64,000 nt of DNA from an uncultured SAR86 cluster bacterium (GCA_902623685.1 CACNUQ010000002.1:1-64000), one strand, 5' to 3'. Numbered from the stretch's first letter, positions 2,571-64,000 are shown. A program made the numbers and translations. The notes: a model not told the origin generated them from the sequence alone.

Positions 2571-3365
2571 ATGCAAGATTTATTTAGCGTAGAGGGTAAA
2601 GTAGTTTTGATAACAGGTGGTTCAAAAGGCCTTGGAAAAATGATTGCAGAAGCTTTTGTGCGCTCTGGTTCAAAAGTTTATATAACAGCACGTCATGGTG
2701 CGGTAGTAGAACAAACGGCTAAAGAACTCAGTAAGTATGGTTTATGTATTGGCATAGAAAATGATATCTCATCTAAAGAAGGAATAGATGCCCTCGTTCG
2801 AGAAATAGAAAATAAAGAAGACATACTTGATGTCCTGATAAATAATGCTGCAACTGGCTGGCATGAGCCCTTTGATAATTTTCCTGAAAAAGGATGGGAC
2901 AAAACATTTAATCTAAATATCAAAGCGCCATTTTTTCTTATTCAAGGACTTAAGCCTCTTTTGGAAAAAAATAAAACAAAAGAAAATCCCGCCAAAGTTA
3001 TAAATATAGCTTCGATAGACGGTTTGGGCGTAGCATTTGAGGATTCTTACCCATATACCGCGTCAAAAGCAGGCTTAATTCATTTAACAAAAAGTCTCGC
3101 AAATGAATTAGCCCCCAATAATATATGGGTAAATTGTATTAGCCCAGGAGCCTTTGCGAGTGATATGAATATCGTAGCTAGAGATAATCCTGATCTCTTA
3201 GCTGCATATGTTCCAACAAAGAACATAGGTACGATGGAAGATATTGGTGGTACATGCATATATTTAGCTTCACGTGCAAGCAATTATACTAATGGTGCCA
3301 ACTTTGCTGTAGATGGAGGCTGGACAGCAGCAGCCTATGGTGGCATTCATCCAGATAAGCTGTAA
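2571..3365 (+). CDS. Short-chain dehydrogenase/reductase (SDR)
   Basis: A 264-residue classical SDR. The Rossmann motif TGGSKGLG lies near residues 16-23, NNAA near 92, the catalytic Ser at about S148 (NIASIDG) and the YxxxK pair at Y162/K166 (YTASK). It ends in the usual substrate-loop and C-terminal segment with AVDGGW. It would oxidise or reduce an alcohol/ketone with NAD(P)H in the cytoplasm. It lies 14 bp after the aminotransferase and is surely cotranscribed, so it may act on the product of that enzyme. It resembles the RhlG/FabG-like group, but the substrate is unknown. It ends 10 bp from the convergent transporter gene. Confidence 0.88.
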   Translation: MQDLFSVEGKVVLITGGSKGLGKMIAEAFVRSGSKVYITARHGAVVEQTAKELSKYGLCIGIENDISSKEGIDALVREIENKEDILDVLINNAATGWHEPFDNFPEKGWDKTFNLNIKAPFFLIQGLKPLLEKNKTKENPAKVINIASIDGLGVAFEDSYPYTASKAGLIHLTKSLANELAPNNIWVNCISPGAFASDMNIVARDNPDLLAAYVPTKNIGTMEDIGGTCIYLASRASNYTNGANFAVDGGWTAAAYGGIHPDKL

Positions 3366-3375
3366 GTTAAATTTC

Positions 3376-4797
3376 TTATTTTTTTCTAATATCTAACTGA
3401 TTAAGAATTTCTATATGCCTGTTTTTAGAAAGGTCATACTTACTGAAAAAGTAACACGAAATTAGTCCCAAAGCTGCTACAAATGGACCTAAAACAATAC
3501 CAAGATCGAACAAATTTTCAGATGTTATGTTATCGACATTAGATGGCCATGCTATAAACCATAGAGCAAAACCTGATAATGCAGAGCCTAGTCCAAGCGC
3601 GGCTTTAATTGAAAAAAATGCAGCAGCAAAAAATGCACCTTCTTGACGTTTATGTGTTTGTATTTCTTGCTCATCAGATATATCTGCGAGACTTGATCCA
3701 AATGCTATGTCACAAGGAGTAATGGCAATGCCTTGCATTATCCTAAAAGACACTAAGATCATAACTATTATAGACATTTCAAGATCATCAAGCATTCCCA
3801 ATAATTTCATTAATATTGGAATGATTATAAAAATGATCCACATAGCATTTCCATATAACATGGAATTTCTTTTGTCCAATCTGCTGATTAATCGTTTTGC
3901 TATAAATACTCCTATAAATGCTCCAGGATAAAATGCTAGTCCTACCAGCAGAAGACTCATCTCACCTGACAATCCCCAAAAGAAAGTTAATGCGTATAAC
4001 TCTAAATTAAAAGTAACTCCTGCTGCCATGCTAGTAAAAATATTGCCAAAGAATACCATCCTAAATGAACGATTTTGTAGGGCTGTATAGATATCACTAA
4101 AGATTGACTTGAAGTTATCTGTGATGGAAAAATTTACTTTTTTTTCATCAGTAATCAAGCTAGGAATAACTGACTTTGTTTTCCAAACGCTAGTTATGCT
4201 TGCAAGTAAATAGATCGTTACTACCACAATTATAAAGGGGTTATATACTTCGGGATTCAGTTGGCCATTTGCATATTCATCCGTAGGTGCAAAAAAGTAT
4301 CCATATGCTAGGAACAAAACAATCACATGTCCAAAGAAATAAAAAAATTGCCTATATCCCACAACAGATGCTCTTTCTAAATAATCTTTTGATAATTCTG
4401 CGCCTAAAGCAAAATGCGGTATTGCAAAAAATGTTAAAAATAAGTTTGTTAAGCATGAAAAAAATACAAACCAAGAGAATAATAATATTTCCCCCTCTAC
4501 AAGTGGGGTATATAGTAAGAATGCAGACAAGGCTGTAGGAAATGTACCAATAACAAGGAAAGGAAATCTCCTACCATATTTTGATCTCCAATTATCCGAT
4601 AAAGAACCAATTATTGGATCGGTAATTGCATCAAACAACGAGGCTATTGCAGAAGCTGTACCTGCCAATAAGGGAGATAAACCGAGAATTTGGACGTAAA
4701 AAAAAAATAAAAACATTCTCTGCATAAGGCTTAACGCTCCAACAGATAGCTGACCTAATCCATAACTAGCTTTTAAATTAAATGAGAGATTGCTCAT
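3376..4797 (-). CDS. GPH-family (MelB-like) cation symporter
   Basis: A 473-residue polytopic membrane protein with about 12 hydrophobic helices. The N-terminal YGLGQLSVGAL, the segment SLFDAITDPIIGSLSD and the following basic KYGRRFPF are hallmarks of the glycoside-pentoside-hexuronide:cation symporter family. It probably imports a small organic solute across the inner membrane with Na+ or H+. It starts 3 bp after the stop of the upstream carboxylesterase, so the two form one minus-strand unit. With the outer-membrane receptor further upstream they could form an uptake path for an ester- or glycoside-type nutrient. The exact solute is not predictable. Confidence 0.85.
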   Translation of the reverse strand: MSNLSFNLKASYGLGQLSVGALSLMQRMFLFFFYVQILGLSPLLAGTASAIASLFDAITDPIIGSLSDNWRSKYGRRFPFLVIGTFPTALSAFLLYTPLVEGEILLFSWFVFFSCLTNLFLTFFAIPHFALGAELSKDYLERASVVGYRQFFYFFGHVIVLFLAYGYFFAPTDEYANGQLNPEVYNPFIIVVVTIYLLASITSVWKTKSVIPSLITDEKKVNFSITDNFKSIFSDIYTALQNRSFRMVFFGNIFTSMAAGVTFNLELYALTFFWGLSGEMSLLLVGLAFYPGAFIGVFIAKRLISRLDKRNSMLYGNAMWIIFIIIPILMKLLGMLDDLEMSIIVMILVSFRIMQGIAITPCDIAFGSSLADISDEQEIQTHKRQEGAFFAAAFFSIKAALGLGSALSGFALWFIAWPSNVDNITSENLFDLGIVLGPFVAALGLISCYFFSKYDLSKNRHIEILNQLDIRKK

Positions 4798-22269: not shown

Positions 22270-23004
22270 TTATTTATTAAAAAACTTTTCTACTGCTTTT
22301 AAGTTATCCTCAGAACCAAATAATTTTTTCATTGCTTTAGTTTCCATTGAACGAGCTTTAGCAAGATCCTCAGACATAAATGATTTTAAGATTGCTTTAG
22401 TTTCAATAATTGAACTGAGTGATTGTTCCTTTAAATCCCGTGCATAGCTATTAGCTTGATCAAGAAAATCATCGCCAATATATTTAGCTAGACCTAATTC
22501 ATAATATTTAGTTCCATCAATGATTTTGGATTGGAACAAGAGTTGAGCCGCTTGTTGATATCCCAGTGCCTGAAATAATAAATAAGAGCTACCAACCTCA
22601 GGAGCTAGGCCTAATTCAGTAAATGGATATTTTATTTTTGTATTAGGAGAAATAAAAACAGCATCAAAATGCAATAAAATGGTTGCACCTCCGCCTACTG
22701 CAGCTCCCTCAACAGCTCCTATTAATGGTTTTTTAAAATTTATTAATGCATCGATACAAGTTTCAAATGGCTCTTCATATTCGTCACCCCCATCTCCCAT
22801 CATGCTACTTAGATCAACGCCCGAGGAAAAAGTATTGGACGAACCAGTTACAATCACAGAATAGATGTCAGGATCGTCGCTTGCTAGATTTAACTCGTCC
22901 CTAAACATTGCCCACAATTCGGCGTCAAATGCATTCTTTTTTTCAGGGCGATTAAAAATTAAGGTACGAATACCTTCTTCGGTCTCTATTAAAAGTTTAC
23001 TCAC
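22270..23004 (-). CDS. Enoyl-CoA hydratase/isomerase (crotonase), second copy
   Basis: A 244-residue crotonase-fold protein. RTLIFNRPEKKNAFDAELW opens the fold, NTFSSGVDLSSMMG forms the first oxyanion-hole segment and AVEGAAVGGGATILLHFDAVF the second. At the site where hydratases carry catalytic Glu there is a Pro-Phe-Thr-Glu-Leu-Gly stretch (KYPFTELGLAPEVGSS), so a Glu is present. It would hydrate or isomerise an enoyl-CoA. Its ATG overlaps the stop of the first crotonase gene, so the pair is translationally coupled. Confidence 0.87.
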   Translation of the reverse strand: MSKLLIETEEGIRTLIFNRPEKKNAFDAELWAMFRDELNLASDDPDIYSVIVTGSSNTFSSGVDLSSMMGDGGDEYEEPFETCIDALINFKKPLIGAVEGAAVGGGATILLHFDAVFISPNTKIKYPFTELGLAPEVGSSYLLFQALGYQQAAQLLFQSKIIDGTKYYELGLAKYIGDDFLDQANSYARDLKEQSLSSIIETKAILKSFMSEDLAKARSMETKAMKKLFGSEDNLKAVEKFFNK

Positions 23005-23798
23005 TTACCTTTGAAATTTGGTTTTCTTTTTTCTGCAAAAGCAGTCAGACCTTCCATCATATCTTCCGTCGAAAAAACTGGCTGCCCTATTTCTAATTCT
23101 TTTTCCAATGCTTCTGATTCTAGATAGCTCTCATCGATTTCTCTTAAAGATTTAACAATTGCCTGAATCGATAAAGGTGCATTTGCACTGACAGTTTCTG
23201 CAATTTCCATAGCTTTCTCGAGAGCAGTTCCATCATCTACGATATGACCAATAAGCCCAAATCTTAATGCTTCCTCAGAAGATATTCTCCTCCCAGTTAA
23301 CAATGCTTCTGCTGCCAGAGTGTAAGGTATTTGCCTTCTAAGTCGAACGGTCGAACCACCTAACGGAAATAAACCCCTTAAGGGCTCAGTTAAACCAAAT
23401 ACAGAACTTTTTCCAGCAACTCTAATATCCGTACCCTGTAAAATTTCTGTGCCTCCTGCAAGTGCAAACCCCTCGACTGCTGCAATGATTGGTTTATTAG
23501 GTCTGTTGTGCCTTAATAAAGATTGCCAATGTAAATCAGGAATTTCTTTTAATTTTTCCATCATCTCAGAATCTTCATTTCCATCCTTCATAGCACTTAG
23601 GTCAGCTCCAGAACAAAAAGTACCACCCGCACCAGTAAGAACAGCGCATCTTAAATTAGAATCTTCGTCGAGTTTTCTCCAAGCTTCATATACAGTTAGT
23701 AACATGCCTGGACTTAGCGCATTTCTTTTTTCAGGACGATTAAGTGTAATGACCATGATGTGGCCTTTTTCTTCTACAATCGCATGCTCTGTATTCAT
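23001..23798 (-). CDS. Enoyl-CoA hydratase (crotonase), first copy
   Basis: A 265-residue crotonase. It has ITLNRPEKRNALSPGML, GTFCSGADLSAMKDGNEDSE and AVEGFALAGGTEILQGTDIRVAG for CoA binding and the oxyanion hole. The catalytic-Glu position reads FGLTEPLRGLFPLGGSTVRL. This pattern is close to the EchA19-like enoyl-CoA hydratases of actinobacterial sterol catabolism. That comparison is from memory and should be tested. It begins 13 bp after the thiolase-like gene and overlaps the second crotonase. Confidence 0.87.
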   Translation of the reverse strand: MNTEHAIVEEKGHIMVITLNRPEKRNALSPGMLLTVYEAWRKLDEDSNLRCAVLTGAGGTFCSGADLSAMKDGNEDSEMMEKLKEIPDLHWQSLLRHNRPNKPIIAAVEGFALAGGTEILQGTDIRVAGKSSVFGLTEPLRGLFPLGGSTVRLRRQIPYTLAAEALLTGRRISSEEALRFGLIGHIVDDGTALEKAMEIAETVSANAPLSIQAIVKSLREIDESYLESEALEKELEIGQPVFSTEDMMEGLTAFAEKRKPNFKGK

Positions 23799-23811
23799 AA
23801 ATATCTCCTAA

Positions 23812-24960
23812 CTAATCAAGTGATGATGAAACTATCCACATCGCAAAAAATTGTGCAGCTCCACCATAAGCATGTCCCATTGCAACTTTCGCATCCTCAA
23901 CTTGATGGTCATTTGCCTTACCCATAACTTGTAAGGCTGCTTCACCAAAACGAATCATGCCCGATGCTCCAATTGGATTGGACGACATAACTCCACCAGA
24001 CATATTAAAAGGTATTTCTCCATCTATAGCTGTTGCATCTTTATCGGTCAGTTTCCATCCATCTCCTAGATCACAAAATCCTAAATTTTCCAGCCACATT
24101 GGTTCATACCAAGAAAATGGAACATAAATTTCTGCACAATCAATTTCCTTGTATGGATTCGTTATGCCTGCCTGATCATAGATATCTTTTGCACAATCAA
24201 TTCCAGCCTGAGGATTGACCTCATCTCTGCCTGCGGACAAAGTACCCTCAGATCTAACAGCCATTCCTTTTATCCAAGCAACATCCCTTGAACCGACAAG
24301 ATCTTTAGATGTAATTACCATGGCACAGGCTCCATCGGACGATGGGCAACTCTCAAGATATCTCAGTGGCTCCCAAAGCATAGGGGTATCACTTACCATT
24401 TTTTCATCTATCCCTGGAATATGAAGATGAGCTAGTGGATTCTTGAGTGCATTCAAACGATCTTTAACTGCAACTTTCCAACCAATGTGTTCTGGAGCAT
24501 CGTATCTGCGGATGTACTCTCTTATAAATGGAGCAAAATATCCCCCAGCGCCTGCATTGATATGAGGAGAATATGGGTAACGTGGTGACAGTGCCCATGT
24601 TGCATTTGATTCAGATTGTTTTTCAAATGTTACTGTTAAAACCGTTTTAAATTGTCCTGAACAAACATGAGTTGCGGCTATAACACCCGTGCTCCCTCCA
24701 ACACTTCCAGCAGTATGGACTCGAAGGACGGGCTTACCAACGGCTCCAATAGCATCAGCTAAATATAACTCAGGCATAACCACACCCTCAAACATGTCTG
24801 GTGCTTTACCTAATATGACAGCATCTATAGCATCCCATTCAACATTAGCAGCTAACATGGCATTATCTATTGCCTCTCGGACTAATCCACCCATGGATAC
24901 ATCCCTTCTTTTGGCATCATATTTAGTTTGTCCAACTCCAATTACGCCCGCCTGAATCAT
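23812..24960 (-). CDS. Thiolase-like lipid-transfer protein without active-site Cys (Ltp3-like)
   Basis: A 382-residue thiolase-fold protein. The start is taken at 24960 (MIQAGVIGVGQTKYDAKRRD) because GGAG lies 8 bp upstream and the start overlaps the preceding stop as ATGA; an ATG at 25002 would add an unlikely tail. The nucleophile-elbow segment reads HTAGSVGGSTG, so the usual catalytic Cys is absent. The C-terminal GASGMIRFGEAALQ and GHAYGGAAQFF keep the conserved His. Thiolase-fold proteins lacking this Cys and paired with DUF35 proteins include the steroid aldolase Ltp2. By analogy this could be a retro-aldolase or ketoacyl-CoA enzyme on a complex CoA ester. Confidence 0.8.
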   Translation of the reverse strand: MIQAGVIGVGQTKYDAKRRDVSMGGLVREAIDNAMLAANVEWDAIDAVILGKAPDMFEGVVMPELYLADAIGAVGKPVLRVHTAGSVGGSTGVIAATHVCSGQFKTVLTVTFEKQSESNATWALSPRYPYSPHINAGAGGYFAPFIREYIRRYDAPEHIGWKVAVKDRLNALKNPLAHLHIPGIDEKMVSDTPMLWEPLRYLESCPSSDGACAMVITSKDLVGSRDVAWIKGMAVRSEGTLSAGRDEVNPQAGIDCAKDIYDQAGITNPYKEIDCAEIYVPFSWYEPMWLENLGFCDLGDGWKLTDKDATAIDGEIPFNMSGGVMSSNPIGASGMIRFGEAALQVMGKANDHQVEDAKVAMGHAYGGAAQFFAMWIVSSSLD

Positions 24961-26012
24961 GATTTTTTCTCCAAATGAACAAGCATGTTGTGTTGTAAAC
25001 ATGGGCCAGAGGATGCATGCGCCAAGCCATTTATAAGATCATTGGATTTTAATGACTCGTAAGTTTTACCAATTGCATCCAAACCTGCACACATCATGAC
25101 ATTACCAACCAATGGTCCGCCAGAAAGATTTGTTGGAACATCACTAAGTTTTAAAACGGATTGTAAATAAGGCACCTCATGACTAAATTGAGTATGTAAC
25201 TCAGCAACATCAAATTTTGTTTTTTCAAGTTTTAAATGCTCAATTGAAGCAAGTATTCCAGAGGGTTTTGAGAGATCGCGTGAGCCTATATTCGATGATT
25301 CAATTCTGTGATCGATGCCTTCAATAAAAATGGGTTGATCGGTAAAATCATATGCTTTTTCTTCTGAGGCAATGATCATGGCAGAAGATCCGTCAGATAT
25401 TGGAGGACAATCAAATTCATTGAGTGGAGAAGAAATTTTCTCACTTGCTAAATATGCTTCTTTATCCACCAATTCAGTAACAAGTGCATTTTTATTATTC
25501 TTAGAATTAGTTCTTGCCTCAATAACTGCTGTAATCATTTGCTCAGGAGTTATGATATTTTTTTCAAGAAGTACCCTTGCCTGTATTGCAGCCAAACTTA
25601 CTCGATCTGGCCAAAGAGGTGAAATGTAATAAGGATCCATTTGTAATGAAATTATTGAATCAAGTCTACCTGGAGAAGATTTACCAAATCCGTAAATCAA
25701 TGCAGTATCTGCATCTCCCATTTGAATTTTTAGCATTGATTCATACATCGCCCAAGCTGCATCCATTTCTACATGCGACTCTTTAATGGGAGGATTGGTT
25801 TGAATGGCAGATAAACCTTCAACAAATGCAAAAGCAGCTCCTTGCAAATAATCACAGCTACCTGAGCAGGTAAAATCTATGTTGTTTTGACTTATACCTA
25901 ATTCATCAAACAGCTGATGAACAACTGGCATGATAAGTTCCACCTCGTTTAAAGCTCCCGCATTCTCTAAAATGGGGTGTTGAGCATATCCCACGATTGC
26001 TACTTTTTTCAT
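24957..26012 (-). CDS. Thiolase-domain protein (Ltp4-like)
   Basis: A 351-residue thiolase-fold protein. Recognisable segments are DFTCSGSCDYLQGAAFAFVE at the elbow, HVEMDAAWAMYESMLKIQMG and LIYGFGKSSPG. These match, from memory, the actinobacterial thiolase-domain proteins of the Rv3522 (Ltp4) kind. The C-terminal GGPLVGNVMMCAGLDAIG and SSGPCLQHNMLV stand where thiolases have their His and Cys blocks. It overlaps both neighbours by 4 bp (ATGA). It likely forms a heteromer with the thiolase-like protein downstream and with one or both DUF35 proteins. The catalysed step is inferred to be C-C bond cleavage of a CoA thioester. Confidence 0.78.
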   Translation of the reverse strand: MKKVAIVGYAQHPILENAGALNEVELIMPVVHQLFDELGISQNNIDFTCSGSCDYLQGAAFAFVEGLSAIQTNPPIKESHVEMDAAWAMYESMLKIQMGDADTALIYGFGKSSPGRLDSIISLQMDPYYISPLWPDRVSLAAIQARVLLEKNIITPEQMITAVIEARTNSKNNKNALVTELVDKEAYLASEKISSPLNEFDCPPISDGSSAMIIASEEKAYDFTDQPIFIEGIDHRIESSNIGSRDLSKPSGILASIEHLKLEKTKFDVAELHTQFSHEVPYLQSVLKLSDVPTNLSGGPLVGNVMMCAGLDAIGKTYESLKSNDLINGLAHASSGPCLQHNMLVHLEKKS

Positions 26013-26506
26013 GATTCTTGAAACCTCAATGTTGCAACATCAACATCTGGTTCATCTATAGGAGCAAACCATTTGATGTTCTCTAATGAATGAGTCCATT
26101 CATCTTTAGGCTTCCAAACTGCTTGTATCCGCATTCCAATTCTAATTTCTTCAACATCAATTCCTTGAATGAGATGCAAAAAAGAAATGTTAGCTCCATC
26201 GAGCCTGATCATTGCACAAACATATGGCGGCACGATGGGATTACCCGGAATAGGAATATGCACGATGGTAAATGATTCAATGCAGCCTTTATCAGTCAAT
26301 GGAACCTCAATATTTGTTGCCACTCCACATCTTGGACAGCTGCCTCTTGGCGGCACATACACAGCGCTGCATTTTGGGCATGACTGGCCTACAATTTTGC
26401 CCTCTTTAACTTGATTAAGAAATCGGGTGGTGGCTGATCCAGCTGTATAGTGATATTCCAAATTTATTGGAGACTCAGCGTAATCTTTTTTTTCTTCTTC
26501 GCTCAT
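26009..26506 (-). CDS. DUF35 OB-fold protein with zinc ribbon
   Basis: A 165-residue DUF35 protein. An N-terminal helix (TRFLNQVKEGKIVGQS) leads into a rubredoxin-like zinc ribbon with four cysteines, C43, C46, C57 and C60 (CPKCSAVYVPPRGSCPRCG), followed by an OB fold (GCIESFTIVHIP, YVCAMIRLDGANISFLHLIQ). DUF35 proteins bind thiolase-fold enzymes and present CoA substrates, as in archaeal thiolase/HMG-CoA synthase complexes and the Ltp2-ChsH2 aldolase. Overlaps of 4 bp with both neighbours support complex formation with the thiolase-like proteins. Confidence 0.88.
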   Translation of the reverse strand: MSEEEKKDYAESPINLEYHYTAGSATTRFLNQVKEGKIVGQSCPKCSAVYVPPRGSCPRCGVATNIEVPLTDKGCIESFTIVHIPIPGNPIVPPYVCAMIRLDGANISFLHLIQGIDVEEIRIGMRIQAVWKPKDEWTHSLENIKWFAPIDEPDVDVATLRFQES

Positions 26507-26949
26507 TTTTCTAAAGTAAAAAATTTAATATCGGTAATTCGATTCTCCATAGTTGCAGACCAATTTGCTGTGACTCTTGATCCAATTTTTAAGTCCGCCT
26601 CATCACACTCGGTAACCATATGGAGCATAGATGTATCAGCTCCATCCAATTTGATTAAAGCAAATGCAAATGGATTTTTAATTAAGTGATGATGTTTTGG
26701 CTCTTCAATCCAACTAAATGATTCGATCACTCCGCCAGGTCCAACTTCTACTAAGTCACTCAATGATTCATGAGTCTCTGGATCAAATTCAGCAGCCGGA
26801 GCATACACCTTTCCAGTACTGCTTTTTGTGCCTAAGATTTTTTGTTCTGCTAGGGCATTAAAAAATTTTGACATAAGAGGACCACTTGAACGCTTATAAT
26901 TATAGGCAAGCTCGAAGGGAGCTCTTAGAAGATCTTTTTGATCACTCAT
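26503..26949 (-). CDS. DUF35 OB-fold protein, zinc ribbon lost
   Basis: A 148-residue second DUF35 protein. The start at 26949 (MSDQKDLLRAPFELAYNYKR) overlaps the end of the ligase gene by 8 bp; a TTG nine bases upstream is less attractive. The helix GPLMSKFFNALAEQKILGTK and the OB fold (GVIESFSWIEEPKHHHLIKN, FALIKLDGADTSMLHMV) match the neighbouring DUF35 protein, but none of the ribbon cysteines remain (SSTGKVYAPAAEFDPETHE). Two DUF35 proteins beside two thiolase-like proteins suggest a hetero-oligomer with one active and one structural pair. Confidence 0.82.
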   Translation of the reverse strand: MSDQKDLLRAPFELAYNYKRSSGPLMSKFFNALAEQKILGTKSSTGKVYAPAAEFDPETHESLSDLVEVGPGGVIESFSWIEEPKHHHLIKNPFAFALIKLDGADTSMLHMVTECDEADLKIGSRVTANWSATMENRITDIKFFTLEK

Positions 26950-28606
26950 TTTCTTCAACCATTGTATTTTTAGATGTGTCTATTAAAACATGTTTCATCA
27001 ATTTACCGGAAGCATTTCTTGGCAATGGCGAATCAACAAATTTCCACTTAGAGGGCACTTTAAAGTCAGCAAGATCCTTTGCCACCCATGCACTTAATTC
27101 TAAATCGTCAACATCAGATTTCTTTGTATACACAATTGCCATTACTTCCTCACCCAAATCATCATGAGGTATTCCAATAACAGCTGACTCCTCTACTCCT
27201 TCATGAGAATCTATGACTAATTCTATCTCCTGCGGGTAAACATTCTCTGCTCCCCTTAAAATCAGATCAGTTCGTCTGGAAGAAATATAGTAAAGAGATT
27301 TTTTCTTAAATCCCCAATCTCCAGTTTTTAGCCACCTATCCTCAGTTAATGAATCTTTAGAAGCAAGAGTATTGTTATAGTAGCCAAGCATAACTGAGGG
27401 GCTTTTAACATATATTTCACCCTCAATTGAGTCCTTATCTATCACCTCCCCATCCTCATCTCTTAGCTGAACTTGAATTGTTGGCATTGGCTGCCCTGGG
27501 GAAGCTGGTTCATTTTTAAGATTATCCCCCCAATTAATAATTGTAATGGCGCCAGATTCTGTAAGTCCGTAGCCATATCCAAAACTATACTTTGAGTTTG
27601 GAAAGACATCTTTTGTTCGCGAAATTAACTCTGGTGGCATTGGTGCACCCCCCCCACCTACTACCAATACACTCATCATTTTTAATCCTTGTTCCTCTGC
27701 ATCATCTAAGACTCTTTTTAGGGCAGTTGGAACTGCTCCTCCCCATGATGTCACATTATATTTTTGGATTAACTCAATGACTCTATTTGCCAAAAATCTC
27801 CCGTCATAAAGCAAGGTTGTAGAACCTGCAAATAGACTCGTAACAGCTCCTGCAGATAATCCTGACACATGAAATAAGGGTGAAGTAAGCAGAGTTGTTG
27901 GGGTGTTCTTGGACCAATCGATGCCTTTACTGGAGGAATCTTGGGATACGGCAGCTCCTTGAAGCATTTGGAGCGTTGAGTTTGCAATCATTGATCTATG
28001 AGATGTCATGACGCCTTTTGGGGTGCCTGTGGTGCCGGATGTATATAAAAGGCATGCGCATTCATCTTCGTCCACTCGAATAAATGAATCAAGTGCTTGT
28101 TCATGTCCTGAAAGATCATGCTGCTCAAATATCATGACAGGATGCTCAAGTGATTCATCAATTCTTTCAAATCGCGCTTGATCTACAACAACGACTTTAG
28201 GATCTGCATCATTAATTGCTTTAATTGCCTCAGAACCTTTCCACCAACCATTCAATCCGCAGGCAATTGCACCGAGACTGACTGTGGCCCAAAAAAATAT
28301 TATCCACTCAGGTGAATTGGCAGCATATATAGCCACCCTATCACCTTGTTGAACTTCATATTTAGTCTGAAGAATATGTGCAGCCTTTTTTACAAGAATT
28401 AAATGTTGATTGAAGGTAATAACTTGGTCTTTAAATATTAAATAAGGTTTGTCGCCATGTGCTGCAGATGATTCAATGAAATCCACCAATGACTTGGGCC
28501 TATTTTTAAAAACATCCATCTGTACTCCAAGAACATTTTCTTGATGAATTTCAAAAAAAGGTTGCTCGTTAATTAGGGCTTGAATGTATTTATCTGAGTG
28601 CAACAT
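26942..28606 (-). CDS. Acyl-CoA synthetase (AMP-forming)
   Basis: A 554-residue class I adenylate-forming enzyme. The P-loop LLYTSGTTGTPKGVM lies near residue 185, SFGYGYGLTESGAI is the A5 motif, YYISSRRTDLILRGAENVYP includes A8 and the hinge, and LPRNASGKLMKHVL carries the catalytic Lys. It activates a carboxylic acid through acyl-AMP to acyl-CoA. It is the first gene of the long minus-strand operon, so it probably primes the substrate for the crotonases and thiolase-like proteins. It belongs to the FadD family, possibly the FadD17/19-like branch for branched or sterol side-chain acids (inferred). A divergent SDR gene starts 160 bp away. Confidence 0.9.
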   Translation of the reverse strand: MLHSDKYIQALINEQPFFEIHQENVLGVQMDVFKNRPKSLVDFIESSAAHGDKPYLIFKDQVITFNQHLILVKKAAHILQTKYEVQQGDRVAIYAANSPEWIIFFWATVSLGAIACGLNGWWKGSEAIKAINDADPKVVVVDQARFERIDESLEHPVMIFEQHDLSGHEQALDSFIRVDEDECACLLYTSGTTGTPKGVMTSHRSMIANSTLQMLQGAAVSQDSSSKGIDWSKNTPTTLLTSPLFHVSGLSAGAVTSLFAGSTTLLYDGRFLANRVIELIQKYNVTSWGGAVPTALKRVLDDAEEQGLKMMSVLVVGGGGAPMPPELISRTKDVFPNSKYSFGYGYGLTESGAITIINWGDNLKNEPASPGQPMPTIQVQLRDEDGEVIDKDSIEGEIYVKSPSVMLGYYNNTLASKDSLTEDRWLKTGDWGFKKKSLYYISSRRTDLILRGAENVYPQEIELVIDSHEGVEESAVIGIPHDDLGEEVMAIVYTKKSDVDDLELSAWVAKDLADFKVPSKWKFVDSPLPRNASGKLMKHVLIDTSKNTMVEENE

Positions 28607-28765: not shown

Positions 28766-29530
28766 ATGTCGACTAATAAACCTCAACCATTGGCAGTGAT
28801 CACTGGCGGAGCCTCTGGAATCGGTCTAGGCGCAGTAAAACGTTTTTTAAATGAAGGATATGAGGTATTGAGCTTAGATGCTAATAAAGAAGCTGGAGAT
28901 AAATCAATCAATGAACTTAAATCAGATACTTGCAAAGTAAATTTTATTCATTGCGATATTACAAATCATTCTCAAATTGAGTCTATTTTTAATGCCCTAT
29001 TAGAGGAAAAACGCCCTGCTAAAGTACTAATTAATTGTGCAGGCATCAGCCCAGCATTGAATCCCTTACACGAATACTCAGTAGACGAATGGCTCAGAAC
29101 CATAAACATAAATTTACATGGAACTTTTTATGCCTGTAGAGAATTCTTAAAGCTTGCTACTGCGATGAACATTAAAGAAGGTTCCATTGTGAATGTGGCA
29201 TCGATAATGGGAACAAGAGCTAGTGCAGCTCAGGCTTCGTATGGTGCCTCCAAACATGCCGTGGTTGGTCTCACCAAATCAATTGCGCAAGACTATGCAA
29301 CGATGAACATAAGGGCAAATGCAATCGGTCCAGGTGTCATAGATACACCAATGAATACAGAATTAATGAAAGACGAAAATGTTATGCAGTACCTTTTACA
29401 AAGAGTTCCTATGAAAAGAGTGGCTTCTGCAGATGAAGTGGCTAATTTAATATATTTTCTAGCATCATCAGAAGCATCTTATATTACCGGATCTTATTAC
29501 CCCATTGATGGTGGGTATCTTGCAAGCTGA
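28766..29530 (+). CDS. Short-chain dehydrogenase/reductase
   Basis: A 254-residue classical SDR. ITGGASGIGLGAV is the cofactor motif, NCAGISPAL replaces NNAG, the catalytic Ser is in NVASIMGTRAS, and the YxxxK pair in YGASKHAVVGLTKS. It closes with a normal DGGYL segment. It oxidises or reduces a hydroxyl/keto group, perhaps a 3-hydroxyacyl-CoA or sterol-ring alcohol given the divergent acyl-CoA-ligase operon. The family does not fix the substrate. It overlaps the start of the next SDR gene. Confidence 0.88.
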   Translation: MSTNKPQPLAVITGGASGIGLGAVKRFLNEGYEVLSLDANKEAGDKSINELKSDTCKVNFIHCDITNHSQIESIFNALLEEKRPAKVLINCAGISPALNPLHEYSVDEWLRTININLHGTFYACREFLKLATAMNIKEGSIVNVASIMGTRASAAQASYGASKHAVVGLTKSIAQDYATMNIRANAIGPGVIDTPMNTELMKDENVMQYLLQRVPMKRVASADEVANLIYFLASSEASYITGSYYPIDGGYLAS

Positions 29531-30347
29531 TATTTTTACAAATAAAACTGCCTTAATCACAGGTGCTGCCAGTGGAATTGGTAGAGGCTTAGCATTGCAT
29601 GCTGCAAAACTTCAAATGAATGTAGTCTTAATGGACCTCAACAAAGATGGTTTAAGTGAGACTCATAGCCTTATGGCAGATTGTCCATCCATGATCATCC
29701 ATTGTGATGTATCTAACTTAGAAGACTTAGCAAAAGCGAAAGAACAAATTGAAAGTGAGTTTGGCATAGTTCATTTCCTATTTAATAACGCGGGAATCTT
29801 TTTAGAAGGTAGAGCATGGAAAGCAGACCAAAAAAACTGGCAACGAATTATTGATGTAAATTTAATGAGTGTGATTTATGGCTTAAATCTGTTTGTTGAT
29901 GAGATGGTTGCTAGCCAAGAACGCTGTCACATTATCAATACATCATCCATGGCAGGTATCATTGTTGGCCCTGCGCTTGCTCCTTATACAACGACCAAGC
30001 ATGCAGTTGTGGGTTTAACCCGAACCTTGCATGAGGATCTAGCAGACAATGATAAGGTTGGGGTGTCTGTACTTTGCCCTGGATTAGTTCAAACCAATAT
30101 CATAGACAGAGATCACCTTGGCCTAGCCCTTGATAAATCTTCAATTGACCAACATGAAAGCGCAAAAAATAATGCTCAATGGCTTGCTGATGGCGTTAAA
30201 GAAGGCATGAGTCCTGAAGACTTAGCTACGATTGTTTTTAAAAAAATTGAAAGCAAGGAGTTTTGGATACTAACTCATCCTGAGTTTGTAGAAGTTTATG
30301 AAACTTATGCAAATGAAATTACAGCAAACAAAAATAATTTAAATTAA
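29505..30347 (+). CDS. Short-chain dehydrogenase/reductase, longer C-terminus
   Basis: A 280-residue SDR. ITGAASGIGRGLALHA binds cofactor, NNAGIFLEG follows, the catalytic Ser is in NTSSMAGI and the YxxxK pair in YTTTKHAVVG. The C-terminal part (KSSIDQHESAKNNAQWLADG) is longer than in the preceding SDR, a trait of enzymes with larger hydrophobic substrates. The start is uncertain. The first ATG (29505) lies 26 bp inside the upstream gene without a ribosome site; a TTG at 29520 after GGTGGG is possible. The two SDRs form one operon. The stop overlaps the convergent phytase gene by 4 bp. Confidence 0.85.
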   Translation: MMVGILQADIFTNKTALITGAASGIGRGLALHAAKLQMNVVLMDLNKDGLSETHSLMADCPSMIIHCDVSNLEDLAKAKEQIESEFGIVHFLFNNAGIFLEGRAWKADQKNWQRIIDVNLMSVIYGLNLFVDEMVASQERCHIINTSSMAGIIVGPALAPYTTTKHAVVGLTRTLHEDLADNDKVGVSVLCPGLVQTNIIDRDHLGLALDKSSIDQHESAKNNAQWLADGVKEGMSPEDLATIVFKKIESKEFWILTHPEFVEVYETYANEITANKNNLN

Positions 30348-31390
30348 TCTAAATTAGTTTTCTTTAAGACTTCTTTGAAGGAAATAATTTTAAAGTTTTG
30401 ATTCTTGAGTTCATCGCCATCATAATTGTAACCATCCTGAGCTACCATCAGGCCCTTAGAAAACTCGCCACCAAAATTAAAACTTGATACAGAAATACCA
30501 TCGGTATCAGATGTTCCATCAATACCGCCATCCTTATCTGAAATCTGAAAACTGGTGATAAAAGCATAAGGTGCATTTCTATTATATAGATTATATTTGT
30601 TATCGCCCTGAGAAGAGAGGACAACATACCCATCGGTTAATGAAGTTTTATATAAGGCCACCCCTTCTGGATCTCCACCAATATTTCCTTCACGAGAATC
30701 AACAATAAATGGTGACTCGAATGGAAATTCTATAGAGAGGTCATAAGCTTTTAAAACTCCATTGGTTTCTTCCTCAGAAATAAATAAAGCCTGATTTTCA
30801 TCGTCAAACACACAGCCCTCTGACTCACCCCCATTATCAAAGGTTCCAACCAAAGTAGAATTGTCTAAAGTCCACAATTCAACGCTTGGTCCCATGTCCT
30901 CAGTGACAAAGGCAACTGGAACAGAGTTAATTAATCCCATGCAAATACCATAAATATTTATTGCAGATAATGTGGTTGACGTTCTAATGGCTGTCGAAAA
31001 AATATCAGCATGATTGCTTGTATTAAAAAAATCATTTTGATTAAAGACCCAATACTCTATAGCCTGAATGCTTCTGTTGGTTGCTGTGACAAATACTTGA
31101 TCATTAAGTTGACGAACATCAATATTATTTATGTTGCCCAGTGGCGCATAGCTTAATTCATTGCCCTCTAGATCATATAAATAAACGCCTGATTTCTTGT
31201 CTGTTCCGAAGATTAGTGAATTAGCTGGATTGTCAAAATTAATAATAATAGCTGGATCGTCCGCAGCATCCTCTGCAGTGATGACAGGAGGAGTTTCATA
31301 ACTGGCATAAATATTTGGATCTTGAGAGCATGAAGAAATAAACAATAACAAAAAAGCCAGCGCAAAGCTGGCTTTGTTTTGATATTGCAA
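30344..31390 (-). CDS. Beta-propeller phytase, lipoprotein
   Basis: About 348 residues. The body matches beta-propeller (3-)phytases: AADDPAIIINFDNPANSLIF, GTDKKSGVYLYDLEGNELSY and GDPEGVALYKTS are the characteristic propeller-blade and Ca2+/phosphate-site segments. These enzymes release phosphate from myo-inositol hexakisphosphate with Ca2+. The start is placed at TTG 31390 because it gives a clean lipoprotein signal, MQYQNKASFALAFLLLFISS, ending in Cys. Upstream ATGs lie inside the receptor gene and would give a long acidic tail. A surface or periplasmic lipid-anchored location is expected. It sits 4 bp after the receptor stop. A terminator-like hairpin lies within its signal-peptide codons. 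Confidence 0.82.
   Translation of the reverse strand: MQYQNKASFALAFLLLFISSCSQDPNIYASYETPPVITAEDAADDPAIIINFDNPANSLIFGTDKKSGVYLYDLEGNELSYAPLGNINNIDVRQLNDQVFVTATNRSIQAIEYWVFNQNDFFNTSNHADIFSTAIRTSTTLSAINIYGICMGLINSVPVAFVTEDMGPSVELWTLDNSTLVGTFDNGGESEGCVFDDENQALFISEEETNGVLKAYDLSIEFPFESPFIVDSREGNIGGDPEGVALYKTSLTDGYVVLSSQGDNKYNLYNRNAPYAFITSFQISDKDGGIDGTSDTDGISVSSFNFGGEFSKGLMVAQDGYNYDGDELKNQNFKIISFKEVLKKTNLD
31350..31375 (-). terminator. Intrinsic-terminator hairpin inside the phytase signal-peptide codons
   Basis: On the minus strand AAAGCCAGC, loop TTTGC, GCTGGCTTT form a perfect 9-bp stem leading into six T. It lies about 20 bp past the receptor stop and covers codons 6-14 of the proposed phytase. 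It could cut phytase expression relative to the receptor. Confidence 0.75.
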
Positions 31391-31394
31391 TGCT

Positions 31395-33947
31395 TTAGTA
31401 GGTATATCTAAATCCAATCGAGTAGGTTGTTCCATACTCATCGTATTGTGATAAACGGTCTTTGAAACCCCAGTAATAATATTCAGGTTCATCAGTTAAA
31501 TTAATTCCCTCAGCTCTAATAGTAAGATTATCGTTGATTTTATATTTAAGAGTAAAGTCCAATTGTGAATGATCATCAACATATCGAGAATTGTCTAAAG
31601 AAACTGTATCTATATCTCCTTCCTCATCAGCAAGCCAATCCAAGTAATCTCCTCTTGAGGAAAGAGCAAGACGAGCATCAATTTTACCTTTGTCATATCC
31701 AATTGAAATATTGCTTTGTCGGTCTGATAATTTTCTAAATGGAGTTGTAAAGGTTTGATTATCGTCAAATGAGAAAGTGCTATCACCGTCAGTGTAAGTC
31801 ATATTCATAGCTAAATATAATCCATCAAACGGTGCAGAAAGAAAATCAAATTCTTGCTGGTAGTTAAATTCTAAACCTTTAATATCTGATTCTTCTGCAT
31901 TGATATAAGTTTTAACACCATCATTAAAATTGATCCCGTTGATTGTTGCGGTTTTTTGATATGTTGGATAGATTGCGTTATCTATTTGCTTAAGAAAAAT
32001 TCCAACGCTTAAGAAAAATAATTCATCGCCATAATACTCATAAGATAAATCAAAATTATTTGCCTCATAGGGTTCTAAATCTGGGTTTCCATATGAGCCT
32101 TTAATATCATCGATATCTCTTTCAACTTCAGCTACCGGAGCAGCATAGGAAAACTTAGGTCTTGAAAGTGCTCGCCAAATTGCACCTCGAATAAGTTCAT
32201 TTTCTGAAAGAAAATATTTGACAGTTAGATTAGGAGATACAAATGTGTAGCTATTAGAGCCATAAGTTTTAGTTGTTCCTGAATCGTATGCTGATGATTC
32301 AAAATCAGTATCCTCAACTCTTATACCTGCAATGATTAAAGCATTTTCAGCCTCAATTGTAGTCATTGCGTATAAAGATAAAACATCTTCCTGAGCAGTA
32401 AAATCTGACTCTAATAATTCTTGACCATCAAGTGTCATTGATGATAGTTGGGATTTCATTTGCGCAGTCGCAGCAGCAGACGCATGGGCAGCGAATGTTT
32501 GACCAGCAAACGGCCAGGCAATTGTTACAGGATCAAAATCCGCCATTGTTTTTCCATCCCACTCATAAAAATCTTTATTTTCATCTCTGATAACCTCGCG
32601 AGTTCTATATTTAAATCCAAATTTAATTGTAGAAGGCAAATCACCAAAATATGAATCTTTTTGAAAATCAACCTTAAAAGCTGTCTCTTCATCTTCAATG
32701 GTTGATCGCTCCAGCTCTAATTCTTTAAAATTTAAATTTGCAGGATCATAAAGCTCCCTATAAGCGGGATAAACATTCAAAAATGGCTTTTTTGGATCGC
32801 TAAAGTTGTATTGGCCTAAAGCTGTATCGCTGCTTAATGCTTTTAAATTTGTACAATCTTCATCTTTGCCTGCCCTTAAATAACATCTAAAAGTTACATC
32901 GGCATTATCAGTATCATCTTGTTCAGCATAAGAATAGCTAAGCTGAAATGAGGTATCCCATTCTCCAATTACAGTATCTCCTCCAAAATTAATTGCTTGG
33001 ATCGTTCTAATCTCCTCACGCACTCTGCTTTCAGCATCATGGCGAATCCTGGAGGTTTCCATGAGTGTGTCTGTTGTGGTGCCAGTTTGAGTGATTTTTC
33101 CGTACTCGTCTTTCCAACGTAACTCATCATCCACATACTCATTCCAAAATGCTTTTACATACAATGTGGTTACATCACTAACTAGAAAATCAATATCATA
33201 GGTAAGACCATATCTTTCTCTGGTTAGGTCGTAATAGCGCATCTCCCAATCATCATTCATTTCTTTTAAGCCAGCAGAGTTTGTTTCCCAACCATATCCA
33301 GTTTCATTGTTATAGGATACGATTTGTTTACTTGAGTATGTAATACCAATAACGTGTGCTGAAGTTTCAGAAATTTTATCGCCATAAGTTAAGGCTATTT
33401 TAGGATTATCGCTACTTTCAGAATTTTCATTGTATGAAGTATCAAACTTCATTTTAAATAATGTTTTTTTAAGGCTGCTAGGATTCTTTGTATTAAATTC
33501 AACTCTGCCTCCAATTGAATCAGCATCCTGGTCAGGCGTTAAACTTTTAGAAATAACAATGCTGTCGAGCAACTCTGTAGGAACTCCATCAAGCATAACA
33601 CTTCTATCGCCTTCAGGTGCGGTGACAGTTGCTCCATTAATTGCCACGGTATTAAGATCTGAGCTTAGACCACGAATGGAGACATATCTTCCCTCACCCT
33701 GATCATTCTCGACAGCAATTCCGGATACCCTTCTTACTGCCTCTGCAGCTGTTGTATCTGGAAATTCACCTAGAGCATCAGAATCAATAACAGAAATAAT
33801 TTGCCCAGAAGCTCTTTGTTTATCAATTGCACTGATTAAGCTTGCTTTTGTTCCAACTACAACGACCTCTTCAACATTTTCTATTTCTGAATCCTGAGAG
33901 TATAAAATGCCTGCAAATAATAAATTGAGTAGTAATATTTTTTTCAT
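31395..33947 (-). CDS. TonB-dependent receptor, TIGR01782-like, paired with phytase
   Basis: An 850-residue receptor. A signal peptide MKKILLLNLLFAGILYS leads to the TonB-box-like EEVVVVGTKASL. The plug follows: AVRRVSGIAVENDQGEGRYV, SIRGLSSDLNTVAINGATV and LLDSIVISKSLTPDQDADSI, a pattern typical of the Xanthomonas/Caulobacter-type TIGR01782 subfamily. The barrel ends in TTYSIGFRYTY with a terminal aromatic. It imports an organic ligand through the outer membrane. Linkage to the phytase suggests phytate or its inositol-phosphate products, an inference. It is divergent from a TetR gene, with a weak Pho-box-like repeat at 33987-34004. Confidence 0.92.
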   Translation of the reverse strand: MKKILLLNLLFAGILYSQDSEIENVEEVVVVGTKASLISAIDKQRASGQIISVIDSDALGEFPDTTAAEAVRRVSGIAVENDQGEGRYVSIRGLSSDLNTVAINGATVTAPEGDRSVMLDGVPTELLDSIVISKSLTPDQDADSIGGRVEFNTKNPSSLKKTLFKMKFDTSYNENSESSDNPKIALTYGDKISETSAHVIGITYSSKQIVSYNNETGYGWETNSAGLKEMNDDWEMRYYDLTRERYGLTYDIDFLVSDVTTLYVKAFWNEYVDDELRWKDEYGKITQTGTTTDTLMETSRIRHDAESRVREEIRTIQAINFGGDTVIGEWDTSFQLSYSYAEQDDTDNADVTFRCYLRAGKDEDCTNLKALSSDTALGQYNFSDPKKPFLNVYPAYRELYDPANLNFKELELERSTIEDEETAFKVDFQKDSYFGDLPSTIKFGFKYRTREVIRDENKDFYEWDGKTMADFDPVTIAWPFAGQTFAAHASAAATAQMKSQLSSMTLDGQELLESDFTAQEDVLSLYAMTTIEAENALIIAGIRVEDTDFESSAYDSGTTKTYGSNSYTFVSPNLTVKYFLSENELIRGAIWRALSRPKFSYAAPVAEVERDIDDIKGSYGNPDLEPYEANNFDLSYEYYGDELFFLSVGIFLKQIDNAIYPTYQKTATINGINFNDGVKTYINAEESDIKGLEFNYQQEFDFLSAPFDGLYLAMNMTYTDGDSTFSFDDNQTFTTPFRKLSDRQSNISIGYDKGKIDARLALSSRGDYLDWLADEEGDIDTVSLDNSRYVDDHSQLDFTLKYKINDNLTIRAEGINLTDEPEYYYWGFKDRLSQYDEYGTTYSIGFRYTY

Positions 33948-61656: not shown

Positions 61657-62424
61657 ATGAAAGACGCGCTTGATAATAAAGTTATCTACATTACCGGAGC
61701 GACTGCTGGTATTGGATTTGCGTTAGCAGAACTTCTCTTAACAAAAGGTTCGACTGTAGTTATATCAGGAAGAAATAATCAAACACTTAAAAGTGCACAA
61801 AAAAAATTACGTAAAATCTCACCTAATCTAATTGCTCATAACATAGATGTTAGTAAAGAGTCCGAAATTGTTGAATCACTTCAGAGCGTTTACTCATCTT
61901 GTGGCAGGATTGATGGATTAGTAAATAATGCGCCCTCTATTCACGTAGGAAAAATTGTAGATCTTGATCTTGCAGCATGGAAAACTAACTTTAAAGCTAA
62001 TTTAGATGCTGTATTTCTTACAACTAAAACTGTTTTGCCTTGGATGATTGATGCTAAAAAAGGATCAATTGTGAATGTTGCATCTGTTGTTGGTCTTAGA
62101 GGAGTTGAATATATGTCTGCTTATGGGGCAGCAAAAGCAGGTTTAATTAATTTTTCCCGTGCAAGTGCTGTAGAGGGTGCTCCTTATGTGAGAGTAAATT
62201 GTATAATACCTGGTGCAGTTGATACTCCTGCAACAAAGCGCGCAATACCCGATGATAATATAATGGCTAATACTATCAAAACTATACCTCTAAAAAGGAT
62301 TGCTGATCCAATAGAAATAGCTAACCCTATAGCATTCTTGCTCAGCTCTGATGCATCATTTATTACTGGAGCAAGCCTTGTGGTAGATGGCGGAAAAACT
62401 GCGGATTTAAATGCTGGTAACTGA
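61657..62424 (+). CDS. Short-chain dehydrogenase/reductase
   Basis: A 255-residue classical SDR. ITGATAGIGFALAEL binds NAD(P), NNAPSIHVG replaces NNAG, the catalytic Ser is in NVASVVGLRG and YxxxK in YGAAKAGLIN. The DGGKTA end is standard. A very strong ribosome site (GGGGGAG) precedes the start. It overlaps the following flavoprotein gene by 14 bp, suggesting that the two oxidise the same molecule, as with a hydroxysteroid dehydrogenase and a delta1-dehydrogenase. The substrate is unproven. Confidence 0.88.
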   Translation: MKDALDNKVIYITGATAGIGFALAELLLTKGSTVVISGRNNQTLKSAQKKLRKISPNLIAHNIDVSKESEIVESLQSVYSSCGRIDGLVNNAPSIHVGKIVDLDLAAWKTNFKANLDAVFLTTKTVLPWMIDAKKGSIVNVASVVGLRGVEYMSAYGAAKAGLINFSRASAVEGAPYVRVNCIIPGAVDTPATKRAIPDDNIMANTIKTIPLKRIADPIEIANPIAFLLSSDASFITGASLVVDGGKTADLNAGN

Positions 62425-64000
62425 AATTAACCCAAACGACGAGCTTTGGCTTTCTAAGGTTGAAGCGCCTCAAATTATTACCGATGCGAACTTATTTGCT
62501 TGGGATGATGAAGCAGACCTTGTTGTAGCTGGCCTAGGTGGTGCAGGTATTGCAGCTGCTAATGAGGCATTAGATCAAAACCTAACTGTTATTGGAATTG
62601 ATAAAACAAGTGGTGGTGGTGCAACAGCTAAAAGTGGTGGTGTCTATTATGCAGGCGGCGGAACTCCTATCCAAATAGCCGCTGGTGTGAAAGATTCTCC
62701 TGAAAATATGTTTAATTACCTAATTCAAGAAACTGGAGATATAGTTAAAGAATCTACCTTAAGAAACTTTTGCGATACTTCAGCTGAGAATACTCAATGG
62801 TTAATGGATAATGGTGTTCAATTTGATCCCTCCTATTATAAAATTAAAACTAGCTATCCAGGAGCAGGATACTTTTTATATCATTCAGATAACTCATTAG
62901 TTCCATCATATATGGAGAAATCTCACCCGGCTCCAAGAGGGCATAGAGGATTTGAGGAAGGCCCGTTCCGACCTATTGGAGTAGGAGGAACCATTTTTTA
63001 TCCTTTAAAAAAATCTGCATTAAAAAAAGGATTAAAAATCTTTCCGCAAACAGAAGCAAGATCCCTGGTTATAACTTCAGAGGGAAGAGTTGTTGGAATG
63101 AAAGTATTGATGCTTCCATCTGGAAAACTTGCAGAAAAACATAAAAAACTTGTTAAAAGAGGAGAAATGTTCCAAATGCTCCTTCCTCCATCGTATCCAG
63201 GATCTAACCTATTGCAAATTATTGGCAATTTTTTTATCAAAAAAGCACAGAAAATTGAAGAGAACTTCAGAGAAGTTAAGTACATAAGAGCAAAAAAAGG
63301 TGTTTGTCTTTCAACTGGTGGTTTTATATTTAATCGTCAAATGGTCAAAGAATATGCCCCTAAATACTATGCAGGAATGCCATTAGGCACATCAAATGAT
63401 CAAGGTTGCGGAATTAGGCTGGGGCAAAGTGTTGGCGGAAAGACCGATCATATGAATCGAGTGACTGCATGGAGATTTTTGAACCCTCCCCTGGCATTTG
63501 CACAAGGTATTGTCGTTAATAAGCATGGAAAAAGATTTTGTAATGAAATGGTCTATGGAGCAACTCTTGGAGATGCAATGTGCGAAGATAATGAAGGTAA
63601 AGCCTACTTAATACTCAGTGCAGAATTATTCACTGAGTCTAAAGTGCAAGCAAATAAAGCTCTACCCTTTCAGAGGGATATGGCCAAAATGTTGATTTAT
63701 TTCAATGCCAAAAAGAAGACAGATCTTGAAGATATTGCAAAAGTTTATGATCTTCCAACAGAGAATCTAATATCGGAGGTAAAAAAATATAATGAGGCAG
63801 CTAATTCAGGTGCTCCCTGTGAATTTGGTAAGGCTCCAACAGACGTTAAATTCCTTAAGGGTCCATTTTACATAATGGATATATCTATCGATTCAAAACT
63901 TGCACCATTAACGACATTAACCTTAGGAGGTTTAATGGTAAATGAAGAAACTGGTGAAGTCTTAGATCAAAATAAAAATGAAATTAAAGGCTTATATGCC
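62411..64000 (+). CDS. FAD-dependent dehydrogenase, KstD/fumarate-reductase type (partial)
   Basis: The first 530 residues of a flavoprotein whose end lies beyond the right edge. The FAD dinucleotide motif VVAGLGGAGIAAANEA is near residue 40, then SGGGATAKSGGVYYAGGGT, where the family has its covalent/isoalloxazine contacts. A substrate-domain section follows, then LSTGGFIFNRQMV and TLGGLMVNEETGEV. These match the FAD_binding_2 family that includes 3-ketosteroid delta1-dehydrogenase, urocanate and fumarate reductases. The start ATG at 62411 overlaps the SDR gene by 14 bp, so they form one operon. The visible part cannot separate KstD-like from fumarate-reductase-like activity. Confidence 0.82.
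   Translation, partial: MLVTEINPNDELWLSKVEAPQIITDANLFAWDDEADLVVAGLGGAGIAAANEALDQNLTVIGIDKTSGGGATAKSGGVYYAGGGTPIQIAAGVKDSPENMFNYLIQETGDIVKESTLRNFCDTSAENTQWLMDNGVQFDPSYYKIKTSYPGAGYFLYHSDNSLVPSYMEKSHPAPRGHRGFEEGPFRPIGVGGTIFYPLKKSALKKGLKIFPQTEARSLVITSEGRVVGMKVLMLPSGKLAEKHKKLVKRGEMFQMLLPPSYPGSNLLQIIGNFFIKKAQKIEENFREVKYIRAKKGVCLSTGGFIFNRQMVKEYAPKYYAGMPLGTSNDQGCGIRLGQSVGGKTDHMNRVTAWRFLNPPLAFAQGIVVNKHGKRFCNEMVYGATLGDAMCEDNEGKAYLILSAELFTESKVQANKALPFQRDMAKMLIYFNAKKKTDLEDIAKVYDLPTENLISEVKKYNEAANSGAPCEFGKAPTDVKFLKGPFYIMDISIDSKLAPLTTLTLGGLMVNEETGEVLDQNKNEIKGLYA

Follow-up and report, generated by a model that had tools for sequence, protein, structure and literature searches.

SAR86 bacteria are very abundant in the ocean. 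Many sterols of algae and plants carry an alkyl group at C24 that prevents simple beta-oxidation. The closest described system for removing such a branch is the actinobacterial cluster of echA19, Rv3521, ltp4 and ltp3. In Mycobacterium tuberculosis the gene order is Rv3521, Rv3522 (ltp4) and Rv3523 (ltp3) (PMC6429209), and ltp3 and ltp4 are reported to be required for C24-branched, but not straight, sterol side chains (PMC6273163; for C24-branched chains also PMC6678751). The pathway given in a review runs through CYP125, FadD19, desaturation, C28 carboxylation, hydration and cleavage of C24-C25 by Ltp3-Ltp4, after which a new thioesterification is mandatory (PMC6678751). A 2016 paper predicted that SAR86 catabolises steroids and stated that cholesterol was not metabolised by the Proteobacteria tested (PMC4810484), and in 2024 side-chain FadE genes and CYP125 were reported in SAR86, along with kshA, kstD and hsaACD in some Suzuki-family genomes (PMC11582366). 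The latter makes no mention of the module described below, and the word 'thiolase' is absent from its text; this concerns the open-licence literature, so a mention elsewhere is possible. Here we describe an operon on the minus strand, at 22270-28606 of a 64,000-nt stretch of SAR86 DNA (the window), that likely encodes the side-chain retro-aldolase module of sterol catabolism, for C24-branched chains of algal or plant type. The kind of enzyme is known, while its occurrence in SAR86 appears to be undescribed.

The window belongs to a 1.31-Mb genome, 82% complete, whose inventory was compiled from searches and individually retrieved contig stretches. A reading made from the sequence alone (the sequence-only reading) had placed it in a marine gammaproteobacterium; the 382-aa Ltp3-type protein is indeed 99-100% identical to records of 'uncultured SAR86 cluster bacterium'. 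A ligase, two DUF35 proteins, two thiolase-like proteins and two crotonases had been named at the locus, and all seven ORFs were recovered, co-directional and with domains that agree (AMP-binding, two OB_ChsH2_C, one of them with zf-ChsH2, Thiolase_C_1 and two ECH_1); the 351-aa Ltp4-type protein has no Pfam match. Overlaps of 4-8 bp had been given for the whole set. They occur at five of the six junctions (8, 4, 4 and 4 bp in operon order, and 4 bp at the last), but the Ltp3-type and EchA19-type genes are separated by a 13-bp gap.

Family scores identify the two thiolase-like proteins. The 382-aa protein matches PRK08313 with 636 bits, above the cut-off of 514, and the 351-aa protein matches PRK07937 with 398 bits, just below the cut-off of 419, the next family scoring 93. 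Nocardia proteins in the same order match the same two families (592 bits to PRK07937 for the Ltp4 orthologue). We call the 351-aa protein Ltp4-type and the 382-aa protein Ltp3-type because their order matches that of Rv3521-Rv3522-Rv3523, a naming with which the lengths of the known proteins agree. In an alignment with SCP2 thiolase, with residues counted from base 24963, Ltp3 has Gly86 at the nucleophilic Cys, YVPF (Tyr280 first) at HDCF and Asn at the His of the GHP motif, and all three positions are invariant in 25 orthologues. The nucleophile position lacks the catalytic cysteine in the thiolase-like proteins of the operon. CtSal likewise carries Gly in place of the Cys and relies on the Tyr of YDCY, and TcLtp2 on that of YDHF (PMC12329534). 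Judged by its aligned residues, with no nucleophilic Cys and a Tyr at the first HDCF-equivalent position, Ltp3 matches the DUF35-dependent steroid aldolase type (Ltp2/Sal mechanism). The third residue of its motif is Pro, in contrast to Cys and His in CtSal and TcLtp2, and candidates for a putative general acid are the invariant Tyr366 or His364 (24 of 25 orthologues). AlphaFold predicts a complete thiolase fold for each of the two subunits (mean pLDDT 80 and 85), and the Ltp3 model resembles 6ok1 and 9myr. In a fold search with the Ltp3 model, acetoacetyl-CoA thiolase 6esq (Z 46.1, rmsd 2.1, 360 aligned) outranks Ltp2 6ok1 (Z 40.7, rmsd 2.5, 353 aligned), so the fold search cannot separate aldolase from thiolase.

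Like Ltp2-ChsH2 and Sal-Shy, the SAR86 system has a DUF35 protein as partner of a thiolase-fold subunit in which the thiolytic Cys is missing and the catalytic position is taken by a Tyr. It differs in having two unlike thiolase-like and two unlike DUF35 subunits, YVPF rather than YDHF or YDCY, and no MaoC hydratase domain; a domain search of the operon returned no MaoC-type hydratase domain linked to DUF35. The first DUF35 half has the C4 zinc motif in none of 80 orthologues, whereas the second half usually has one, and PDB relatives of the zinc-bearing protein include the ChsH2 DUF35 of 6ok1. The two halves share a single open frame in 43 loci and are separate in 37, a split that is approximate since fusion was called from a common frame without a stop. 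By analogy with DUF35-Sal-Sal-DUF35, a zinc and a zinc-less DUF35 protein with two unlike thiolase-like subunits suggest a pseudo-symmetric tetramer.

We mapped the cluster by tblastn over 85 loci, in groups that include SAR86, Halieaceae, Spongiibacteraceae, Actinomycetota and Myxococcota. The tetrad DUF35b-DUF35a-Ltp4-Ltp3 is in this order in nearly all of them, in Gammaproteobacteria, Actinomycetota and Myxococcota alike; EchA19 is close to it in most loci and a FadD19-type ligase is mostly adjacent too. Because the tetrad order recurs across several phyla, the operon is not a chance grouping. An annotated steroid 3-ketoacyl-CoA thiolase and a P450 are encoded about 7 kb from this block in Tsukamurella. 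The actinobacterial cluster echA19-Rv3521-ltp4 (Rv3522)-ltp3 (Rv3523) shares the orthologous order and the nearby EchA19. In SAR86, by contrast, each DUF35 half has its own gene, the operon includes EchA19 and a CasG-like ligase, and the FadD19-type ligase is about 36 kb away. The likeness to Rv3515c-Rv3523 seen in the sequence-only reading thus holds, as orthology, for Rv3521-Rv3523 and echA19, by families, order and PDB matches, but not for FadD19 as the operon ligase. In a quick Ltp3 tree, SAR86 and the Cellvibrionales families Halieaceae and Spongiibacteraceae form one clade (26 rows, SH-aLRT 99; the f2 row, G036, is on a long branch), and a recent transfer from actinobacteria is therefore unsupported. 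The Halieaceae and Spongiibacteraceae clusters differ from that of SAR86 in that no CasG-like ligase was seen in the operon and, in most, the FadD19-type ligase directly follows Ltp3. Steroid degradation is reported for sponge isolates of these families, and growth with cholesterol is stated for the sponge Gammaproteobacteria of that study (PMC5790920).

The operon ligase is CasG-like only: CasG is its best NCBIfam model by more than 200 bits (545, the next 334), below the equivalog cut-off of 750. PRK07798 is absent from its best 25 family models, and these scores rule out FadD19. We take PRK07798 as the FadD19 type because the Nocardia PRK07798 ligase is divergent from echA19, like Rv3515c and Rv3516. 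Such a ligase (614 bits, cut-off 543) is encoded just beyond the window end, at C2:64118-65737, after the KstD-type flavoprotein gene. CasG acts on the C5 side chain of cholate (PMC8708139). A CasG-like ligase inside an aldolase operon would fit re-thioesterification, since that step follows Ltp3-Ltp4 cleavage and CasG takes C5 chains. A second, weaker CasG-like ligase (398 bits) lies at 57397-59100 of the window, near the KstD-type gene. The first crotonase has EchA19 (4f47 and 6wyi) as its best PDB matches, at 273 bits versus 201 for the next, a lead of 72 bits; it scores 365 bits with PRK07799, above the cut-off of 316, and 341 with the EchA19 equivalog, whose cut-off is 400. A gene related to the second crotonase lies near EchA19 in Halieaceae.

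Steroid-ring genes, for which a search of the genome had been proposed and whose absence was part of what would have refuted the sequence-only reading, are present in the same genome, and that reading is not refuted. An operon at C4:35.7-57.3 kb holds HsaC, two CoA-transferase subunits (IpdAB-like), hydratases, an IpdC-like protein, a FadE pair, FadA6, a short-chain dehydrogenase/reductase (SDR) and a P450, as well as HsaD, HsaE, acetaldehyde dehydrogenase, HsaF, KshA and FadD3; FadA6, HsaF and FadD3 exceed their cut-offs (658 over 591, 586 over 286 and 696 over 657 bits). The genome has two KstD-type enzymes. One, at C14:15038, has 3-ketosteroid-delta1-dehydrogenase as its best family (501 of 789 bits); the other is the flavoprotein from 62411, recognised as KstD-type from the sequence alone, whose best solved relative, 4at0, scores 216 bits versus 83 for the next (652 bits with PRK07121). 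Paired acyl-CoA dehydrogenase genes are an arrangement known in steroid catabolism, and ten of the 13 acyl-CoA dehydrogenases in the genome are in five adjacent pairs.

Ltp3 orthologues (at least 68% identity) occur in 24 of 60 genomes, all within genera g1, g8, g10 and g11, and KshA_C and HsaC are confined to the same four of 18 SAR86-order genera. Two such genus sets would coincide by chance once in 3060, a figure that relatedness weakens. Among 232 Gammaproteobacteria, Ltp3 is found in two (one being the genome studied here) and KshA in four; both Ltp3 holders have KshA, with a chance of about 2e-4 that is likewise weakened by relatedness. An ordinary fatty-acid beta-oxidation operon, in which ligase, hydratase and thiolase-like genes are common, would lack the DUF35 partners, the EchA19 best matches and the restriction to holders of ring genes, and would keep its nucleophilic cysteine; given its active-site residues and distribution, we reject this reading. 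Degradation of non-steroidal branched isoprenoids (terpenoids, phytol-like chains) by an analogous retro-aldol step is improbable. The substrate is assigned indirectly, thiolase/DUF35 pairs serve varied chemistry and a different cluster, on a Rhodococcus plasmid, contains a distant paralogue (41%), but the genus-level co-occurrence with KshA and HsaC is strict and EchA19 is orthologous. Of the sterol, bile-acid-like or terpenoid compounds that the sequence-only reading had considered, sterols are thus favoured by ring genes and orthology, and terpenoids are disfavoured by the same co-occurrence. Bile-acid use is less likely than use of C24-branched sterols, because Ltp3/Ltp4 are reported to be required with branched and not straight chains (PMC6273163).

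In the ring operon KshA is encoded in two pieces. The gene of a 149-aa Rieske protein overlaps that of a 290-aa catalytic protein, which has its own N-terminal part but has lost the Fe-S motif there (L164:2522-2971 and 2955-3827; C4:52.5-53.8 kb in the genome studied here), and this was seen in 13 of 13 loci checked, in genera g1 and g8. Another two KshA_C proteins, each about 333 aa long, are encoded at C2:82513-83514 and C19:1388-2386; the former has KshA structures as best PDB matches, and a P450 and the FadD19-type ligase are encoded nearby. Inside the ring operon, a CYP120/CYP51-like P450 (C4:46712-47944; L163:16661-18010) is a candidate sterol hydroxylase. Its high-scoring class is found only in genera holding Ltp3, KshA and HsaC.

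For the sterol module we infer the following substrate, stoichiometry and order of steps. A P450 and the FadD19-type ligase, both encoded elsewhere, would convert the sterol side chain to the 26-oyl-CoA, which a FadE pair would desaturate and a crotonase hydrate. A complex of Ltp3 (catalytic, with Tyr280 as the presumed base) and Ltp4, each paired with one DUF35/OB subunit, would then cleave C24-C25 of the C24-alkylated chain. The remaining C5 (24-oic) acid would be re-activated by the CasG-like ligase and enter beta-oxidation with the EchA19-type hydratase, and degradation of the nucleus would fall to the 9,10-seco operon of contig C4. Several findings weigh against this scheme. Both the CasG and the EchA19 equivalogs are below cut-off. 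The P450 nearest the FadD19-type gene, at C2:79.5 kb, is not specifically CYP125-like and is closest to the EpoK type, leaving CYP125 unsupported there. Branched chains should require a C28 carboxylase, but none could be identified among the carboxyltransferases seen, which carry no type assignment. Finally, neither Ltp2-ChsH2 nor Sal-Shy, for the last side-chain step, was found in this genome (G000) or in G010, G021 and the one-contig G032, the genomes being 82-92% complete.

In these four genomes (G032 is 92% complete) the operon pair were the only PF01796 proteins found, and a search at 1e-10 gave a single Ltp3-like protein in each; G000 has one zf-ChsH2 protein only. Removal of the last C3 side chain is therefore left without a known enzyme in these genomes. 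It is possible, though rather unlikely, that the complex is a general steroid side-chain aldolase of SAR86 that also cleaves C17-C20 (C3 side chain) or C22-C23 (bile-acid type), as the lone DUF35 pair, the single Ltp3-like match per genome and a ligase of 24-oyl type would allow. However, actinobacterial Ltp3/Ltp4 are reported as needed for branched chains only, the genomes are incomplete, and a non-DUF35 enzyme could perform the last step. We only tentatively propose that most genomes of this SAR86 genus have a single Ltp3-Ltp4-DUF35/DUF35 complex as their sole DUF35 steroid aldolase, which has taken over the C17-C20 cleavage of Ltp2-ChsH2, or else that an unfamiliar route serves this lineage for removing the last side-chain carbons. 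A second cluster, of patchy occurrence, is present in some relatives; it encodes another DUF35 protein, thiolase-like proteins and a P450, in most cases together with a second HsaC-like dioxygenase (Table 1). In the window, a phytase-like beta-propeller protein directly follows a TonB-dependent receptor, the genes overlapping (30344-33947), between the SDR pair and a TetR-like gene.

Table 1. Positions of the operon genes, neighbouring genes and second clusters (window coordinates unless a contig is named)
Feature	Position	Strand	Evidence or remark
Acyl-CoA ligase, CasG-like (steroid-24-oyl-CoA synthetase type)	26942..28606	-	AMP-binding; NCBIfam CasG 545 bits
DUF35/OB-fold protein without zinc ribbon, corresponding to N-terminal half of Rv3521-like protein	26503..26949	-	PF01796 40.6 bits
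DUF35 protein, CX2CX10CX2C zinc ribbon and OB fold, ChsH2-DUF35-like	26009..26506	-	PF12172 and PF01796
Ltp4-type thiolase-like subunit, 351 aa	24957..26012	-	PRK07937; predicted thiolase fold
Ltp3-type thiolase-like subunit, 382 aa, probable catalytic aldolase subunit	23812..24960	-	PRK08313; motifs
EchA19-type enoyl-CoA hydratase	23001..23798	-	PDB 4f47, 6wyi; PRK07799
Second crotonase, divergent	22270..23004	-	ECH_1 120 bits
SDR, divergent from operon	28766..29530	+	neighbour conserved in SAR86
Second SDR	29505..30347	+	neighbour conserved in SAR86
Flavoprotein, 3-ketosteroid-delta4-(5alpha)-dehydrogenase type	62411..64000, continues to contig C2:64111	+	PDB 4at0; PRK07121
Second patchy clusters	G002:C1:156-174 kb; G006:C2:78-97 kb; G014:C2:126-135 kb; G015:C2:59-73 kb; G036:C9:110-120 kb		

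Taken together, our results indicate that algal sterols are probably a food source for part of the SAR86 lineage. Much carbon is held in membrane sterols, and a branch-removing aldolase in part of SAR86 and in marine Halieaceae and Spongiibacteraceae would give a concrete gene marker for the turnover of C24-alkylated sterols in the surface ocean. The SAR86 system may also serve as a natural test of whether one aldolase can make two cleavages.

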